DNA from: Devosia sp. 66-14
GTDB taxonomy: Bacteria > Pseudomonadota > Alphaproteobacteria > Rhizobiales > Devosiaceae
Direction of reading: 5' to 3'
DNA: 62,025 nt
NCBI GenBank assembly: GCA_001899085.1
Contig: MKVB01000001.1
Coordinates: 635,117-697,141 of the forward strand
Part shown: piece by piece, positions 4,216-61,087 of the stretch
Layout: every line of letters starts with the position of its first letter
How positions within the stretch are numbered: the stretch's first letter is position 1
The notes under the pieces: model-generated
The model's input: the letters and a program-made list of their open reading frames with translations, nothing else
What the model was told of the DNA's origin: nothing
Database searches by the model: none
Made by a program: the position numbers and the translations under genes

Positions 4216-5487
4216 CTAGATCGCCGAAAACACCAGCGTCGCGTTGACCCCGCCGAAGCCGAAGGCATTCGACAATGCGTGCCGGACGGTCTTTTCCTGC
4301 GCCACCTTGGGCACCAGGTTGAACTGTTCCCCCACGTCCGGGTCTTCGAGGTTGCGGGTCGGCGGCACGATGCCGTTGCGGATCGCGAGGATCGAGAACA
4401 GCGCCTCGATCGCGCCCGCCGCGCCCATCAGGTGCCCGGTCGCCGACTTGGTCGAGGAGATCGCCAGGTCCTTGCCGCGGTTGGCGAACACCGCGCCGAT
4501 GCCGGCCAGTTCCGCCGCGTCGCCGACCTGCGTCGAGGTGGAGTGCGCATTGATGTAGTCGATCTCACCCGGCGACAGCCCGGCCATCCGCAAGGCGCCG
4601 CGCATCGCTGCCTGCGCCCCGGCCCCACCGGGCTCGCCGGCCGTCAGGTGATAGGCATCGGCCGAGGTCCCGTAACCGGAAAGTATCGCGAGCGGCTCTG
4701 CGCCGCGCGCCCTGGCGTGGCTCAGCCGCTCGATCACCAGCACGGCCGCGCCCTCCGCCAGCACGAAGCCGTCGCGCTTGCGGTCGAACGGCCGTGACGC
4801 GCCTTCCGGGTCATCGTTGAACGCCGTCGCCAGCGCCCGCGCCGCGCCGAACCCGCCGACCGAGATGGGGTCGACCGAGCCCTCGGCCCCGCCGACGATC
4901 GCCACGTCCGCCTCGCCGGTGAGGATCAGCCGCATGCCATCGCCGATCGCCTGGCCCGACGCCGCGCACGCCGTCACCGGCGCGCCGATCGGCCCCTTGA
5001 AGCCATAGCGGATGGAAATCCAGCCGGCCGCGAGGTTGGCGAGAAAGCTCGGCACCGTGAACGGCGACAGCCGGCGCGGCCCCTTCTCGATGATGGTCTC
5101 CACGGCATGCGCCATCACCGGCGAACCGCCGACGCCGGTGCCGATCACCGTGGCCGTCCGCGCCTTCTCGTCCTCGGTCTGGGGCGCCCAGCCGGACTGG
5201 GCGATCGCTTCCTGGGCGGCGACCAATCCATACTGGATGAACAGGTCCATCTTCTTGATGTCCTTGGGGTCGATCGCCACCAGCGGATCGAACCCTTCAG
5301 GGTCCGTCGCTGTCGTCGGCACCAGTCCGGCCACCTTGGCGGCATAGTCGGTCACGTCGAACCGTGTGTTCCTGACGATACCGCTCCTGCCGGCGATGAG
5401 GCGGGACCACACGGTCTCGACGCCGGTGCCGAGCGGGCTCACCACGCCCATGCCGGTAACGACGATCGGATCGGACTGAGTTGCCAT
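4216..5487 (-). CDS. fabF: Beta-ketoacyl-ACP synthase II
   Basis: 423 residues, full length for KAS II. It condenses malonyl-ACP with a growing acyl-ACP in fatty acid elongation, in the cytoplasm. The complete active site is visible: nucleophile Cys174 in VTACAASGQA, His315 in NAHSTST, Lys347 in SSTKSATGHLMGAAG and His352. It lies 62 bp downstream of a MarR-type regulator on the same strand rather than next to acpP/fabD, so this may be an accessory copy used in a specialised or regulated pathway. Whether a second fabF exists elsewhere cannot be seen here. Confidence 0.92.
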   Translation of the reverse strand: MATQSDPIVVTGMGVVSPLGTGVETVWSRLIAGRSGIVRNTRFDVTDYAAKVAGLVPTTATDPEGFDPLVAIDPKDIKKMDLFIQYGLVAAQEAIAQSGWAPQTEDEKARTATVIGTGVGGSPVMAHAVETIIEKGPRRLSPFTVPSFLANLAAGWISIRYGFKGPIGAPVTACAASGQAIGDGMRLILTGEADVAIVGGAEGSVDPISVGGFGAARALATAFNDDPEGASRPFDRKRDGFVLAEGAAVLVIERLSHARARGAEPLAILSGYGTSADAYHLTAGEPGGAGAQAAMRGALRMAGLSPGEIDYINAHSTSTQVGDAAELAGIGAVFANRGKDLAISSTKSATGHLMGAAGAIEALFSILAIRNGIVPPTRNLEDPDVGEQFNLVPKVAQEKTVRHALSNAFGFGGVNATLVFSAI

Positions 5488-5549
5488 CGAAGTGCTTCCT
5501 TATGTGTAGTTACACGGGTGGAGTCGGGATCGTGCTCCGCCCATCCTGG

Positions 5550-5975
5550 TCAGATGGTGGCGAGCCGCTGCAGTTTCATCAGGGTATCTTCAAAGCCCTC
5601 GGCGCCGAGCTCCTGACGGATCTCTGCCTGCGCCTTGCGCCAGAGCGGCAATAGTTCGTCCACCAGCGCCCTGCCCTTCGGGGTCAGCGAGCAGATGCGG
5701 CCATTGCCATGCTCGGCCGGCCGCGAGGCGATCAGCCCCATCTTCTCCAGCCGATCGAGGTTGCGCGTCAGCGTCGTCCGCTCGAAGCCGCGCTGTTCCG
5801 CCAGCTCGCTGACGTTCCGCTCGCCCGACGCGACGATCAGCCCGAGCACCGAATACTGCGTCGAAGTGATGCCGAACGGCCGCGTATAGGCATCGTAGCG
5901 CCGCGTAATCGCCCGCGCCGCCATCCGCGTGTTCGAAACCATGCACCGGCTGAAATCATCCATATGCCGATACAT
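5550..5975 (-). CDS. MarR-family transcriptional regulator
   Basis: About 141 residues from the chosen ATG (5975). The MarR winged helix is evident: ITSTQYSVLGLIVASG, then the recognition-helix region ERNVSELAEQRGFERTTLTR, and the wing around ASRPAEHGNGRICSLTPKGR. The frame is open about 95 bp further upstream, but that part is arginine-rich and unlike the family; ATG 5963 is another possible start. It probably shares a transcript with fabF and may regulate it. A candidate operator (ATACA-N5-TGTAT) overlaps the start region. The ligand is unknown. Confidence 0.85.
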   Translation of the reverse strand: MYRHMDDFSRCMVSNTRMAARAITRRYDAYTRPFGITSTQYSVLGLIVASGERNVSELAEQRGFERTTLTRNLDRLEKMGLIASRPAEHGNGRICSLTPKGRALVDELLPLWRKAQAEIRQELGAEGFEDTLMKLQRLATI

Positions 5976-57253: not shown

Positions 57254-57753
57254 CGGCGCAACACGTGGCACGCTGTGCGTGCGGCAAAGTCGAGCTCGAA
57301 CTGAGCGGCGCGCCGCTGATCAGTCTCGTCTGCCATTGCGACGACTGCCAGGCCGGCTCGGCGATGATCGAGGCCCTGCCCGGCGCTCCCCGGATTCTCG
57401 ATGCCGGCCACGGCACGCCCCATGTGCTCTATCGCAACGACCGCGTGCTCTGCACCAAGGGCACCGAGCTGCTCCAGGGCTACACACTGAAGCCGGACTC
57501 GACCACCCATCGCATGGTGGCCAGCTGCTGCAATTCGCCCATGCTGGTGCGGCTTCCGCCCGTACTGCACTGGACCCCGATCTATCGCGACCGCATCGCC
57601 CTACCGGCGCCGCCGCTGGAGATGCGTATCCAGACCAGGTTCCTGCCGGCCGGCATCGCACTGCCTGCCGATCTGCCTGCTGTCAGCGGAACGCCGCTCA
57701 CCTTCGTCGTCCGGATGGTCGCGGCCAAGCTCGCCATGCTGCTCGGCCGCTGA
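57250..57753 (+). CDS. GFA-like zinc-binding protein, divergent
   Basis: 167 residues. The N-terminus CACGKVELELSGAPLISLVC followed by HCDDCQAGSA matches the first GFA cysteine clusters, and a later CCNSP replaces the usual C..C pair, so the last zinc site looks altered. The DUF6151-type proteins have this pattern, in my recollection. It is translationally coupled to tetR, and so likely co-regulated with the hydrolase. Function unknown. Confidence 0.75.
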   Translation: MTAQHVARCACGKVELELSGAPLISLVCHCDDCQAGSAMIEALPGAPRILDAGHGTPHVLYRNDRVLCTKGTELLQGYTLKPDSTTHRMVASCCNSPMLVRLPPVLHWTPIYRDRIALPAPPLEMRIQTRFLPAGIALPADLPAVSGTPLTFVVRMVAAKLAMLLGR

Positions 57754-57781
57754 CGCAGCGGCCAGGGCGGCTCCGGGCCGC

Positions 57782-58354
57782 TCAGCAGTCTTTCCAGCGC
57801 AGCCGGTAGACGATTGCCGTCTTGACGTCCTGCGCCCGGATGCTGGCCGAAGCGGCCTGCCCGCCGGCAGCCCGGACCAGCAGGCTCGAATTGGTGCGCA
57901 GCGTCACGCCGCCGCCGCAGGCCGACCAGACCAGCGCGGCATCGCTCGCGGCGGTGAAGCGCCCGTTCTGCGGTCCCTTGAAGCTGCGGCTGAACACCGG
58001 ACCGGTGCCGCCCGCGAGGAACTGCTCGATGGTGAATTGCGACGTCGCCCCCGCCGGCAAGCGGTTATAGCCGGCATAGTTCACGGCAATCACCGCCACG
58101 CTCTTGCCGGCCGGCACCGTGACCGGCACCGACAGGCTGCAGGCCTTGCGGTCGAACGTCTTGCCGCTCGAACCACCGGCGGCGACCTGGTAGCGGTCGA
58201 ACCGGATGCTGATGCTGTCATTGCCGGCGACCACCGTCGCTGTCCCCGCCGGGCAGCCGGGCCCGCCATAGGAGGGCTTGCCCAGCTTCGGGGCCGCTGC
58301 CGTTGCCGGCAGGCTCATCGCAATCAGTGTCAGGGCCAGCAACCAGGCTTTCAT
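57782..58354 (-). CDS. Secreted DUF4360-domain protein A
   Basis: 190 residues with a Sec signal (WLLALTLIAMSLPATAA). The DUF4360 pattern is clear: GGPGCPAGTA, a DRKAC segment, VIAVNYAGYN, VWSACGGGV and the ending DVKTAIVYRLRWKDC. Cysteines 34, 72, 146 and 190 match those of protein C, predicting two disulfides. GGAGA precedes ATG 58354. Third gene of the operon, 20 bp after the autotransporter-like gene. The function of DUF4360 is not established. Confidence 0.83.
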   Translation of the reverse strand: MKAWLLALTLIAMSLPATAAAPKLGKPSYGGPGCPAGTATVVAGNDSISIRFDRYQVAAGGSSGKTFDRKACSLSVPVTVPAGKSVAVIAVNYAGYNRLPAGATSQFTIEQFLAGGTGPVFSRSFKGPQNGRFTAASDAALVWSACGGGVTLRTNSSLLVRAAGGQAASASIRAQDVKTAIVYRLRWKDC

Positions 58355-58374
58355 CAGGCTCTCCAATAACCGCG

Positions 58375-59715
58375 CTAGAACTGCAGGCTCAGCGTCGTGC
58401 CGGCCTGCACGTGCGTGCCGCTGACGGCGCCGCTCGAGCCCTGCGCGAAAACTCCGAGGGTGGTCGAAGGACCGAAGGTCCACCCCAGCCGCGCCCCATA
58501 CTCGGCGAACAGCTCACTTTGCCCGCCGACCGAAACCGGACCGACGAACGCCACGTCTGCGGCGACCGCGTCATTGGCGAAGCTGTGGCCGATGGCACCA
58601 TGAACCGTCAGGTCGATGTCGGGCGTCACGGCACTGGTCCAGGCGGCGTCGGCCTTCACCGTGGTGAAGCTGTTGGTGCTGTCGCCGAACGTCGCCGGAA
58701 ACAGATTGTCGGTCCCGAATGTCTCGCTGTAGCCATCGACGCTGAGCCAGCTCTGCAGCAGCGTGCCGGTAAAGGCGATCTCGTTGCTGGGATCCAACGC
58801 ATAGAGCGCGCCGCCCTCGAGATAGAGGCCGACCAGCGAAGCCGAGGTGCTGGATTTGACGGTAGCACCGTCCGCCGAGCCGTCATCATACTGGCGCGTG
58901 AAGCCGAGCGACATGCCAGGAGCGGCGTTGATCCCGGCGCCCCCGAACAGCCGGATACCGCCGGTGTCGGGCTGCAGATACTTGGCGCGGCCGCTGAACA
59001 ACAGGCCGTCCGCACTCGACTCGCCGACCGACTGGCCGAACAGCGCCACGCCCCCGTCGACGGCAAAGCCATCGCCCATGTTGAGGTGGCCGGTAGCCCC
59101 TACCGTGTGTGAGCCGACAGCGCCGAGCAACGCCACATTGTCCGGGCGCTCGACCGGCTGACCGCCGCCGACCAGCAGCTCCGATGTCGCATTGAGGTGG
59201 GTGACGATGCCGGTACGGCCGGTAGCGATGTCGCCGATCGAGCTTTCGACCGATGCCAGCGTGGTGCGGCCGAGTTCCACGTAATCGACACTGTCGAGCC
59301 CGGCCTGCGATGGCGGGCTGGGACTTTGCAGGTTCAGGCTGATGTCGCTGACGATGTTGCCGGCGGCATTGGAGCCGACATAGCCGGTATGGAAAAAGTC
59401 GGTAGCTGAACCGGGAATGACCGCCACGTCCGAGACGCCACCCTGCGTCGTCGTCAGCGTTCCGGTGTCGCCCTCGATCACGAAGCCCCGATAGTCGGCC
59501 CGATAGACCGCAAACGTATCCTCTGGCAGCAGCGTCGGCGCCACCAGGTTGCAGGTCGCGCTTGCGGTGGTCGTCGCCAGAAACACGTCGAAGATGACGC
59601 TGACCGACGTGCCGTTATTGGTGATGCTGGTGTCGCCGGGCGGGCAACCGTCCGCGGCGAATGCGCCGCCCGACATCAGGAGAAACAGTGGGGCGGCGGC
59701 GAACGGGATTCTCAT
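58375..59715 (-). CDS. Autotransporter-like outer-membrane protein with short DUF4360-like passenger
   Basis: 446 residues. Sec signal 1-20, then about 23-80 similar to the first half of DUF4360 (DGCPPGDTS, Cys24 and Cys55, YRADYRGFVI), an intervening region, a predicted helix at about 140-182 (DYVELGRTTLASVESSIGDI) and a C-terminal beta-barrel at about 195-446 with alternating aromatic strands, ending AGTTLSLQF with terminal Phe, the outer-membrane signature. This is the layout of a type V autotransporter with an unusually small passenger. It lies between the two DUF4360 genes. Confidence 0.78.
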   Translation of the reverse strand: MRIPFAAAPLFLLMSGGAFAADGCPPGDTSITNNGTSVSVIFDVFLATTTASATCNLVAPTLLPEDTFAVYRADYRGFVIEGDTGTLTTTQGGVSDVAVIPGSATDFFHTGYVGSNAAGNIVSDISLNLQSPSPPSQAGLDSVDYVELGRTTLASVESSIGDIATGRTGIVTHLNATSELLVGGGQPVERPDNVALLGAVGSHTVGATGHLNMGDGFAVDGGVALFGQSVGESSADGLLFSGRAKYLQPDTGGIRLFGGAGINAAPGMSLGFTRQYDDGSADGATVKSSTSASLVGLYLEGGALYALDPSNEIAFTGTLLQSWLSVDGYSETFGTDNLFPATFGDSTNSFTTVKADAAWTSAVTPDIDLTVHGAIGHSFANDAVAADVAFVGPVSVGGQSELFAEYGARLGWTFGPSTTLGVFAQGSSGAVSGTHVQAGTTLSLQF

Positions 59716-59769
59716 CTGGTCACTCCGAAGACCGGAGGGGTGGACACCACCCCTCCGCAGGAGCTGTGC

Positions 59770-60369
59770 TTAGCACTTCTTCCATTGCAGCTGGTAAACG
59801 ATGGCCGCGCTCACATCTTCGGAGTCGACCGTCGCCAGCGCCTGCTTGTTCTGCTTGGTGGTGACGCGAATGCTCGAATTGGTGCGCAGGTTCACGTCCG
59901 CGCCGCATGCCGACCATACCGTCGTCTGCGCCGTCAGCTTGTTCTGGATCAGGTAGTTCTCATCCTTGGGACCGTTGAAGGTCTTGCTGAAGGTCGGGCC
60001 GCGGGCGCCGGCGAAGAAGTACTCGACATTGAACTGGGAGTTCGAGCCGGCCTGGAAATTGTTGTAGCCGCGATAGTCGATGGCGAGCACCGCAATGCTC
60101 AGCCCCTGCGGCACGTGCACCGGGATCGCGACATTGCAGGCCTTGCGATCGAAGGTCTTGCCGGTATCACCGCCGGCTTCGACGACGTAGGAGTCGAACA
60201 GCAGGCTGAGCGAGGTGGCGTCGGGGCTCAGCGTTGCCGAAACACTCCCGCCCGGACAACCGGTACCGCCATATCCTGGAGTGCCCAGCGTGATGGCCTC
60301 CTGAGCGTGTGCCATGCTGGTGAACGAGGCAGCGGCGACGAGCGCGGTGACGGCGAGGAGAGATTTCAT
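59770..60369 (-). CDS. Secreted DUF4360-domain protein C
   Basis: 199 residues with a Sec signal (LLAVTALVAAASFTSMAHA). DUF4360 landmarks: GYGGTGCPGG, FDRKACNVAIPVHVP, LAIDYRGYNNF, VWSACGADVNLRTNSS and the ending VDSEDVSAAIVYQLQWKKC. Cysteines at 38, 78, 155 and 199 align with those of protein A; the two are clear paralogues. AGAAGGG lies before ATG 60369. First gene of the three-gene operon, 54 bp before the autotransporter-like gene. Confidence 0.85.
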   Translation of the reverse strand: MKSLLAVTALVAAASFTSMAHAQEAITLGTPGYGGTGCPGGSVSATLSPDATSLSLLFDSYVVEAGGDTGKTFDRKACNVAIPVHVPQGLSIAVLAIDYRGYNNFQAGSNSQFNVEYFFAGARGPTFSKTFNGPKDENYLIQNKLTAQTTVWSACGADVNLRTNSSIRVTTKQNKQALATVDSEDVSAAIVYQLQWKKC

Positions 60370-60434
60370 TTGAGCAGCCCTTCTGGAAGCTACGGCGAAC
60401 CTGCCGCAGTTGCCGCAAGCTAACCGAGCGTCCA

Positions 60435-60452
60435 TGACTCCGAGGTGAGTCA
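60435..60452. promoter_or_regulatory. Inverted repeat with two GANTC sites before the DUF4360 operon
   Basis: TGACTC-N6-GAGTCA, perfect 6-bp arms, each arm holding one GANTC (the CcrM methylation site of alphaproteobacteria), 65 bp upstream of gene C. Possible operator or methylation-sensitive promoter element. Confidence 0.35.
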
Positions 60453-60501
60453 GCCGTTCATCTCCCGTTCAGGTGCGCGCGCGCTGCCGGTTCCGAGAAC
60501 G

Positions 60502-60531
60502 AAAAAGGGCCCGCGCCAGGCGGACCCTTTC
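60502..60531 (-). terminator. Rho-independent terminator of dksA
   Basis: On the minus strand AAAGGGTCCGC pairs with GCGGGCCCTTT (one G-T pair) around a short loop and runs into TTTTC, 28 bp past the dksA stop. Confidence 0.8.
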
Positions 60532-60558
60532 AAGCTTGCTGTCGGCGGTGCCGGCGAC

Positions 60559-60972
60559 TTACTCGTCGCGATACACCTTCTCGCGCCGCTCATGCATTTC
60601 CTGGGCTTCCAGGGAGAGCGTGGCGATCGGCCGGGCGTCGAGCCGGGCGATCCCGATCGGGTCGCCGGTTTCTTCGCAATAGCCGTAGGTGCCGTCTTCG
60701 ATCCGCTTGAGCGCCGAGTCGATCTTCGAGATCAGCTTGCGCTGCCGATCGCGGGTACGGAGCTCAAGGGCACGGTCGCTCTCCGAGGAGGCGCGGTCGG
60801 CCATGTCCGGATGGTTCTGGCTTTCTTCCTGCAGGTTTTCGAGCGTTTCGCGGCTTTCCCGAAGGATCTCTTCCTTCCACCGCTCCAGCTTCTGCCGGAA
60901 ATACTCCCGCTGCCGCGGGTTCATAAACGGTTCGTCCTGAGTAGGTCGGTATTCAAGAACTTCAGTCGACAT
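60559..60972 (-). CDS. dksA: RNA polymerase-binding transcription factor DksA
   Basis: 137 residues. Binds the RNA polymerase secondary channel with ppGpp in the stringent response. The coiled coil (about 25-95) carries the tip motif with DMADRASSESDRALELRTRD. The zinc-finger region has only one of the four usual cysteines (YGYCEETGDPIG, then ARPIATLSLEAQ), a pattern common in alphaproteobacterial DksA, which fold without the classical zinc site. Two adjacent GANTC sites lie just upstream of the start. Followed by a strong terminator. Confidence 0.94.
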   Translation of the reverse strand: MSTEVLEYRPTQDEPFMNPRQREYFRQKLERWKEEILRESRETLENLQEESQNHPDMADRASSESDRALELRTRDRQRKLISKIDSALKRIEDGTYGYCEETGDPIGIARLDARPIATLSLEAQEMHERREKVYRDE

Positions 60973-60975
60973 TCT

Positions 60976-60985
60976 GACTCGATTC
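60976..60985. promoter_or_regulatory. Two adjacent GANTC (CcrM) sites before dksA
   Basis: GACTCGATTC contains two abutting GANTC sites starting 4 bp upstream of the dksA start codon. In Caulobacter-type genomes such sites mark promoters responsive to CcrM methylation and GcrA; the position here is nearer to the ribosome site than usual. Confidence 0.3.
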
Positions 60986-61087
60986 CAAAACGCCCCTAAT
61001 GGCCGGCCTTATAGTGGCGCAAGGGTATGCTTCGCAAGCTTTCAAAAGCTTGGTGATCAATCCGTGAGTGGACAGCCGCCGACTGTG

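Follow-up and report, generated by a model that had tools for sequence, protein, structure and literature searches.

Autotransporters of type Va export an N-terminal passenger with the help of a C-terminal outer-membrane barrel. A 2022 review gives EstA as the only published structure of a globular passenger and states that more than 90% of the published passenger structures hold a beta-helix (PMC9289746). Passengers that bind one another are described, Ag43 among them (PMC9289746; PMC6668479), and for the autotransporter Pet, disulphide loops of more than 20 residues are reported to be incompatible with translocation (PMC10269718). The DUF4360 family (PF14273) includes fungal secreted proteins, as stated in one report (PMC10949477), and Bd1399 of Bdellovibrio, in whose crystal structure (8OKH) two conserved disulphides are described as locking a sandwich (PMC10792529). 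Here we analyse a 62,025-nucleotide stretch of Devosia sp. 66-14 (contig MKVB01000001.1 of GCA_001899085.1, positions 635,117 to 697,141, forward strand; hereafter the window), in which a gene named BAR appears to join these two families: by profile comparison, its product is an autotransporter-type protein whose passenger is a DUF4360 domain, and directly upstream lies D1, a gene for a free DUF4360 protein. As the most probable reading, held tentatively and with less than even confidence, we suggest that a small autotransporter displays its DUF4360 domain at the surface, where a soluble homologue, produced in excess, would dock.

A trimmed DUF4360 domain on an autotransporter-type barrel

D1, BAR and a second DUF4360 gene, D2, are three consecutive minus-strand genes with gaps of 54 nt (D1-BAR) and 20 nt (BAR-D2), and at E<=0.001 they are the only PF14273 matches in the 5.72-Mb genome. 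An earlier note on this DNA had singled out these three genes, their shared motifs, the first two cysteines and the ADYRGF motif of the passenger, and the terminal Phe of the barrel; all of these are present, with PF14273 matches in all three proteins. The parts of the locus are as follows, with signal peptides and their ends assigned by eye.

59770..60369, minus strand: D1, secreted DUF4360 protein of 199 amino acids with four cysteines, first gene of the unit (PF14273, 166.6 bits, profile positions 3-178 of 178)
59733..59757, minus strand: hairpin of 11 pairs with a loop of 3, inside the 54-nt D1-BAR gap
58375..59715, minus strand: BAR, autotransporter-type protein of 446 amino acids with a DUF4360 passenger and a terminal Phe
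59656..59715, minus strand: presumed signal peptide of BAR, about residues 1-20, a hydrophobic run ending AFA/AD, judged by eye
59260..59655, minus strand: passenger of BAR, about residues 21-152, with Cys24 and Cys55, a predicted DUF4360 domain without the second cysteine pair (Pfam and profile alignment)
59176..59259, minus strand: linker of BAR, about residues 153-180, helix-like by alignment pattern, judged by eye
58378..59175, minus strand: predicted autotransporter-type beta-domain of BAR, about residues 181-446 (hhalign against PF03797 barrels)
57782..58354, minus strand: D2, second secreted DUF4360 protein, 190 amino acids, four cysteines, optional member (Pfam, 109 bits)

The match of window BAR to PF14273 spans residues 22-90 and profile positions 13-93 of 178, with 27 bits, just at the curated cut-off, a coverage that accounts for the half-domain passenger of the earlier note. 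Profile comparisons extend the homology into the second half. When 10 passengers were aligned with 22 free DUF4360 proteins, the profile alignment ran over 129 columns (score 118.5), covering residues ~19-144 of window BAR and extending in the free profile to position 169 of 187. The stretch that follows ADYRGF in the 10 passengers scores 25.7 (hhalign) against the second half of DUF4360, a value reached by none of 200 column shuffles (mean 9.1, maximum 14.6), and segments of the barrel, which serve as a natural control, do not exceed 14.2. Enlarging this test to 14 passengers and 25 free proteins raised the score to 36.7 (0/200 shuffles, maximum 15.5). The passenger of the fusion on a Mesorhizobium plasmid (L149) aligns with the free DUF4360 protein L101 at 36% over 161 residues with a gap at the loop that bears Cys3; this is the sole pair compared directly, and its E value of 6e-23 counts for a single comparison. 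For two plasmid fusions, Pfam coverage of DUF4360 itself extends to position 126 of 178. On these alignments, the passenger of BAR is a whole, trimmed DUF4360 domain, without the Cys3 loop and Cys4. On the profile tests and the L149-L101 pair we reject a half-domain passenger, and the idea of a split domain completed by strand complementation fell together with it.

Trimming is reflected in the cysteines. Each of the 14 mature passengers has two cysteines, 29-47 residues apart, at the sites of the first pair, and none has the second pair, whereas the free DUF4360 proteins in the alignment carry four cysteines each (22/22). Two fusion proteins have one extra cysteine, which lies inside the presumed signal peptide. 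The free type nearest to the passenger by fusion-profile score consists of L044, L041 and L101; when passengers and free DUF4360 proteins are placed in one tree, long branches come together. Built from 17 local DUF4360 proteins, a profile matches 8OKH with E 2e-6. A PDB search with D1 alone returned 5 insignificant matches (E 0.16-0.94), including an esterase module and an adhesin, which we do not use as evidence.

We class BAR as an autotransporter-type protein with an unusual passenger because its barrel profile matches PF03797 barrels, and the autotransporter-like barrel proposed in the earlier note is thus borne out at the profile level. Aligned with 21 PF03797 barrels of related genomes, 18 barrels gave an hhalign score of 56.9 over 240 columns up to the terminal Phe (maximum of 60 shuffles, 21.1), and the 14 fusion barrels scored 62.4, a value obtained without shuffles. 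The PF03797 set comprises 21 of 30 loci fetched, with 8 short or partial matches and L145 omitted. The G013 ortholog matches PF03797 over positions 25-252 with E 3.6e-4, short of the cut-off. All 14 fusions end in Phe, and a helix-like conserved stretch precedes the barrel (alignment, by eye). The best PDB match of the barrel profile is EstA (3kvn), at a non-significant E of 0.13. NCBIfam gave no match to the window proteins at cut-off, and none to window BAR up to E 1.

Related barrels occur with other passengers. HAF repeats precede them in two proteins of G007 and in G108 and G406; the two HAF barrels of G007, a genome with no DUF4360 match, group in the tree with 10 DUF4360-fusion barrels (99/98), and G108 likewise has the barrel with a passenger other than DUF4360. 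In four proteins from a genus of another family, very similar related barrels follow very short Pro-rich or Ser/Thr-rich stretches (L105 6553-7686, L106 6633-7703, L107 6610-7509, L108 6089-6982).

Conservation of the D1-BAR pair and its gap hairpin

In 14/14 distinct loci, comprising 10 genome contigs of two families and 4 plasmids, D1 is the gene immediately preceding BAR, in the same orientation; in the 10 genome loci the gap measures 54-76 nt. Of the 19 genomes of the genus, DUF4360 occurs in 9, and 8 of these carry the fusion, the gene of the ninth (G001) being cut by the contig end; the remaining 117 genomes of the family gave no DUF4360 match and no whole fusion. The searches at the level of order, class and phylum were made on samples. 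Among 397 genomes of the order, DUF4360 was found in 3 and the fusion in the same 3 (the genome of the window and two of another family), so that D1-BAR is present in 10 of the 11 genomes of the order with DUF4360, the eleventh being G001 with its cut contig. In the samples of the class (385 genomes) and the phylum (398), G983 was the one genome with a DUF4360 match besides that of the window. The PF14273 searches of the family, order, class and phylum listed two of the three window-genome matches and missed the window passenger; therefore, weak DUF4360 domains elsewhere may be overlooked. Among 72,556 plasmids, five carry the fusion (Mesorhizobium, Pararhizobium, Rhizobium and two alike from Shinella), each adjoining a D1 match; one of the two Shinella plasmids (H5) has the same length and scores as the other (H4) and is left uncounted, giving four distinct plasmid loci. 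Four of the five plasmid records already name the fusion 'DUF4360 domain-containing protein', with the barrel unmentioned. Nine other plasmids have relatives of D1 (Nostoc 4, Streptomyces 3, Streptantibioticus 2) and no fusion match. The pairing of D1 with BAR is true of genomes, not of every DUF4360 gene. Absence of the arrangement from all related genomes, which by the earlier note would have spoken against its reading, is not what the 14 loci show.

The three-gene unit of the earlier note holds in part: D1-BAR is conserved across families and replicons, whereas D2 lies downstream of BAR in only 5 of the 10 genome loci. For the three annotated plasmid stretches, the gene table, itself incomplete, shows no DUF4360 gene after BAR. 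D2 is therefore an optional member outside the conserved core. Two loci have an extra DUF4360 gene ahead of D1. The D1 of G012 is cut by a contig end and was excluded from the trees and D1 alignments. On the plasmid of Rhizobium sp. 32-5/1 (L151, ~5300-5870), D1 is frame-broken and the fusion open, in an unannotated record where a sequencing error is possible; this broken D1 was excluded from the D1 sets.

The surroundings of the unit vary. In the window, dksA lies upstream and a GFA-family gene downstream on the opposite strand (Pfam); flgI is near the unit in the window and in G013, a LysR gene is near it in G008, and the plasmid units have copper, methionine-salvage or IS66 genes around them. 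The D1 and BAR trees, compared informally, have three groups in common (window/G004; G003/G006/G008; G477/G311), and one weakly supported pairing differs. Both genes are under purifying selection: over four locus pairs, dN/dS is 0.07-0.14 for D1 and 0.20-0.54 for BAR (whole gene), values that are rough since some dS exceed 1. A general rule that the passenger evolves faster than the barrel was rejected, dN/dS being so in 2 of 4 pairs.

Free DUF4360 genes of other kinds were also seen. A single type without the DYRG motif (L045 8653-9222, L046 8316-8885) has a gyrB-like frame, identified by eye, on the same piece of DNA in both genomes, with no barrel match there. In G983 (L147 683-2013), which shares only the phylum, a tandem pair of divergent DUF4360 genes is present, with no barrel in the available flanks.

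A hairpin with a score of at least 25 is present in the D1-BAR gap of 14/14 loci, with 9-13 stem positions and at most one mismatch, its sequence being similar among close kin only. Among codirectional control gaps, this score is reached in 0/11 of 40-90 nt and in 6/21 of 40-220 nt; Fisher's test of 14/14 against 6/21 gives p 1.8e-5, with the related loci not independent. The controls come from two plasmid stretches, the 40-90 nt class was chosen by the analyst, and the Shinella gap, at 204 nt, falls outside it; the gap ends in L149 and L151 follow from gene starts that were likewise chosen by the analyst. Random windows of the same locus match the scores of the ten genome hairpins in 0-3.5% of cases (0.5% for the window hairpin). 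T-rich DNA follows some of the hairpins (e.g., in G006, G008 and Pararhizobium). Fold energies of 10 gaps against shuffles are mixed, with z from -0.2 to -5.4. An automatic alignment of the gaps showed no covariation in support of the hairpin (5 pairs, of which 1 had a double change; energy -0.36) because the gaps do not align, and the hairpin test per locus replaced it. No Rfam family was found within 57400-61000 and no consensus promoter within 57600-60700. We suggest that the hairpin may favour D1, either by terminating part of the transcripts or by protecting their 3' ends. The gap between tandem DUF4360 genes also folds strongly at L100 8597-8787, where the hairpin is terminator-like by eye, and at L102 9518-9709; therefore, other free DUF4360 genes may carry a 3' hairpin of their own.

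Proposed docking and alternative roles of the DUF4360 passenger

Several observations lead us to the docking reading: the homology between partner and passenger, the pairing in every resolvable genome of the order, the hairpin, and the edge pairing reported for the 8OKH crystal, in which the beta8 edges form a continuous sheet across two molecules (PMC10792529). The groups common to the D1 and BAR trees and the existence of passengers that bind one another, such as Ag43, also speak for it. D1 would be a small beta-sandwich protein with the DUF4360 fold, exported by the Sec route. The C-terminal barrel of BAR would insert in the outer membrane, with the N-terminal DUF4360 domain carried outside and remaining attached. 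The hairpin after D1 would end or protect most transcripts, thereby leaving D1 in excess over BAR, and the displayed domain could then act as membrane anchor or docking site for its soluble homologue, edge strand to edge strand. The outcome would be a DUF4360 coat or a binding layer. Anchoring of small DUF4360 proteins by BAR, as the earlier note proposed, would be plausible; the further suggestion that the barrel protein templates them is not supported.

A number of findings weigh against docking. The spacing of the kept cysteines, 29-47 residues, exceeds the 20-residue limit reported for autotransport of Pet, and implies either that oxidation follows export or that the domain is periplasmic. 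As to the crystal pairing, the authors of 8OKH themselves consider the physiological meaning of the dimer unclear (PMC10792529). Pairing with BAR is not universal for DUF4360 genes: G003 has a D1-type gene on a separate contig without a second barrel match, and single DUF4360 genes also occur in G003, G006, G008, G477 and G311. In all four pairs BAR is the faster-evolving gene of the two, where a tight, fixed interface would predict otherwise. As for the hairpin, the score is reached as well in 2 of the 3 control gaps that measure 93-99 nt, and the window hairpin has no T run and is unlisted by the terminator scan. Finally, the window barrel alone has no PF03797 match, and 2 of 18 single barrels match that family at E<=10, the best with E 1.3e-4.

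Some of these findings fit another arrangement, in which BAR, fixed to the surface, and the one or two free DUF4360 proteins each bind one outside target, e.g., a polysaccharide, in parallel, and share an operon for co-regulation with no mutual contact. We regard this as a serious alternative, possible though on balance doubtful. The same domain is present in BAR and in the soluble proteins; DUF4360 occurs without BAR on the nine Nostoc, Streptomyces and Streptantibioticus plasmids and in the G983 pair; it also occurs as single genes in G003, G006, G008, G477 and G311; and BAR diverges fast while D1 does not. What parallel binding alone leaves unexplained is the presence of D1 beside BAR in every resolvable DUF4360 genome of the order (10 of 11, the other cut).

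A periplasmic location of the DUF4360 domain, with its disulphide formed, appears improbable to us; there the domain would recognise D1 as the cargo of the barrel, an exporter or porin, in a manner reminiscent of two-partner secretion. Such a location would suit the cysteine pair, since a spacing of 29-47 residues is easier to reconcile with an oxidising periplasm than with passage through a barrel, and D1 and BAR are adjacent in 14/14 loci. However, the barrel is related to those of PF03797, a family whose members export their own N-terminal part. No POTRA domain is found in BAR, where Pfam up to E 10 gives DUF4360 alone, and the barrel family is shared with HAF-repeat proteins, one of which is described, from annotation, as a cell-surface exported autotransporter (PMC8685578).

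A chance fusion in decay, with BAR as the remnant of a DUF4360 duplicate that read into a neighbouring barrel gene and persists through linkage alone, is very improbable: although the second cysteine pair is lost and Pfam barely detects the second half of the passenger, the fusion is open in all 14 distinct loci, its first cysteine pair and terminal Phe are kept in each, whole-gene dN/dS of BAR is 0.20-0.54 in the four pairs, and the unit is found in differing contexts and on plasmids.

Comparison with known secretion systems

The novelty of the locus is an autotransporter with a new type of passenger, together with a free twin. The earlier note knew of no described system of this form, and in agreement with it we found no paper that combines DUF4360 with an autotransporter in the open-access literature searched. 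A small conserved beta-sandwich passenger paired with a free homologue would widen the known kinds of passenger, and the DUF4360 family, with its Bdellovibrio predation protein and fungal secreted proteins, would gain a genetic partner. The unit would also be a natural case bearing on the reported limit to disulphide-loop size in autotransport. Taken to its full extent, which we consider unlikely, the docking reading would define a sub-kind of type V secretion, an anchor plus free twin, in which a trimmed displayed copy captures and patterns an untrimmed soluble copy made in excess by way of the hairpin, and which exports a cysteine pair above the limit, with oxidation delayed until after translocation.

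Compared with type Va autotransporters, BAR has the expected plan of a signal peptide (by eye), an N-terminal passenger, a linker and a PF03797-related barrel ending in Phe. It differs in that its passenger is a small DUF4360 domain with a cysteine pair rather than a beta-helix or a lipase, and in that the neighbouring gene encodes a free homologue of this passenger. The closest barrels are those of the HAF-repeat autotransporters (TIGR02913), which belong to the same subfamily; their passenger consists of HAF repeats, whereas that of BAR is DUF4360. Viewed from the DUF4360 family, D1 and D2 are whole members that match over the full domain, like Bd1399 (8OKH) and the fungal secreted proteins, whereas the domain of BAR is fused to a putative outer-membrane barrel and has lost the second cysteine pair. 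Two adjacent genes for an exported protein and a barrel recall two-partner secretion (TpsA/TpsB); unlike TpsB, BAR is without a POTRA domain (Pfam) and its barrel carries a passenger of its own. With Ag43 and other self-associating autotransporters, the unit would share surface binding between like domains. Ag43, however, binds itself through a long beta-helix, whereas the passenger of BAR, of ~130 amino acids, is homologous to DUF4360 and its partner would be a soluble paralogue.

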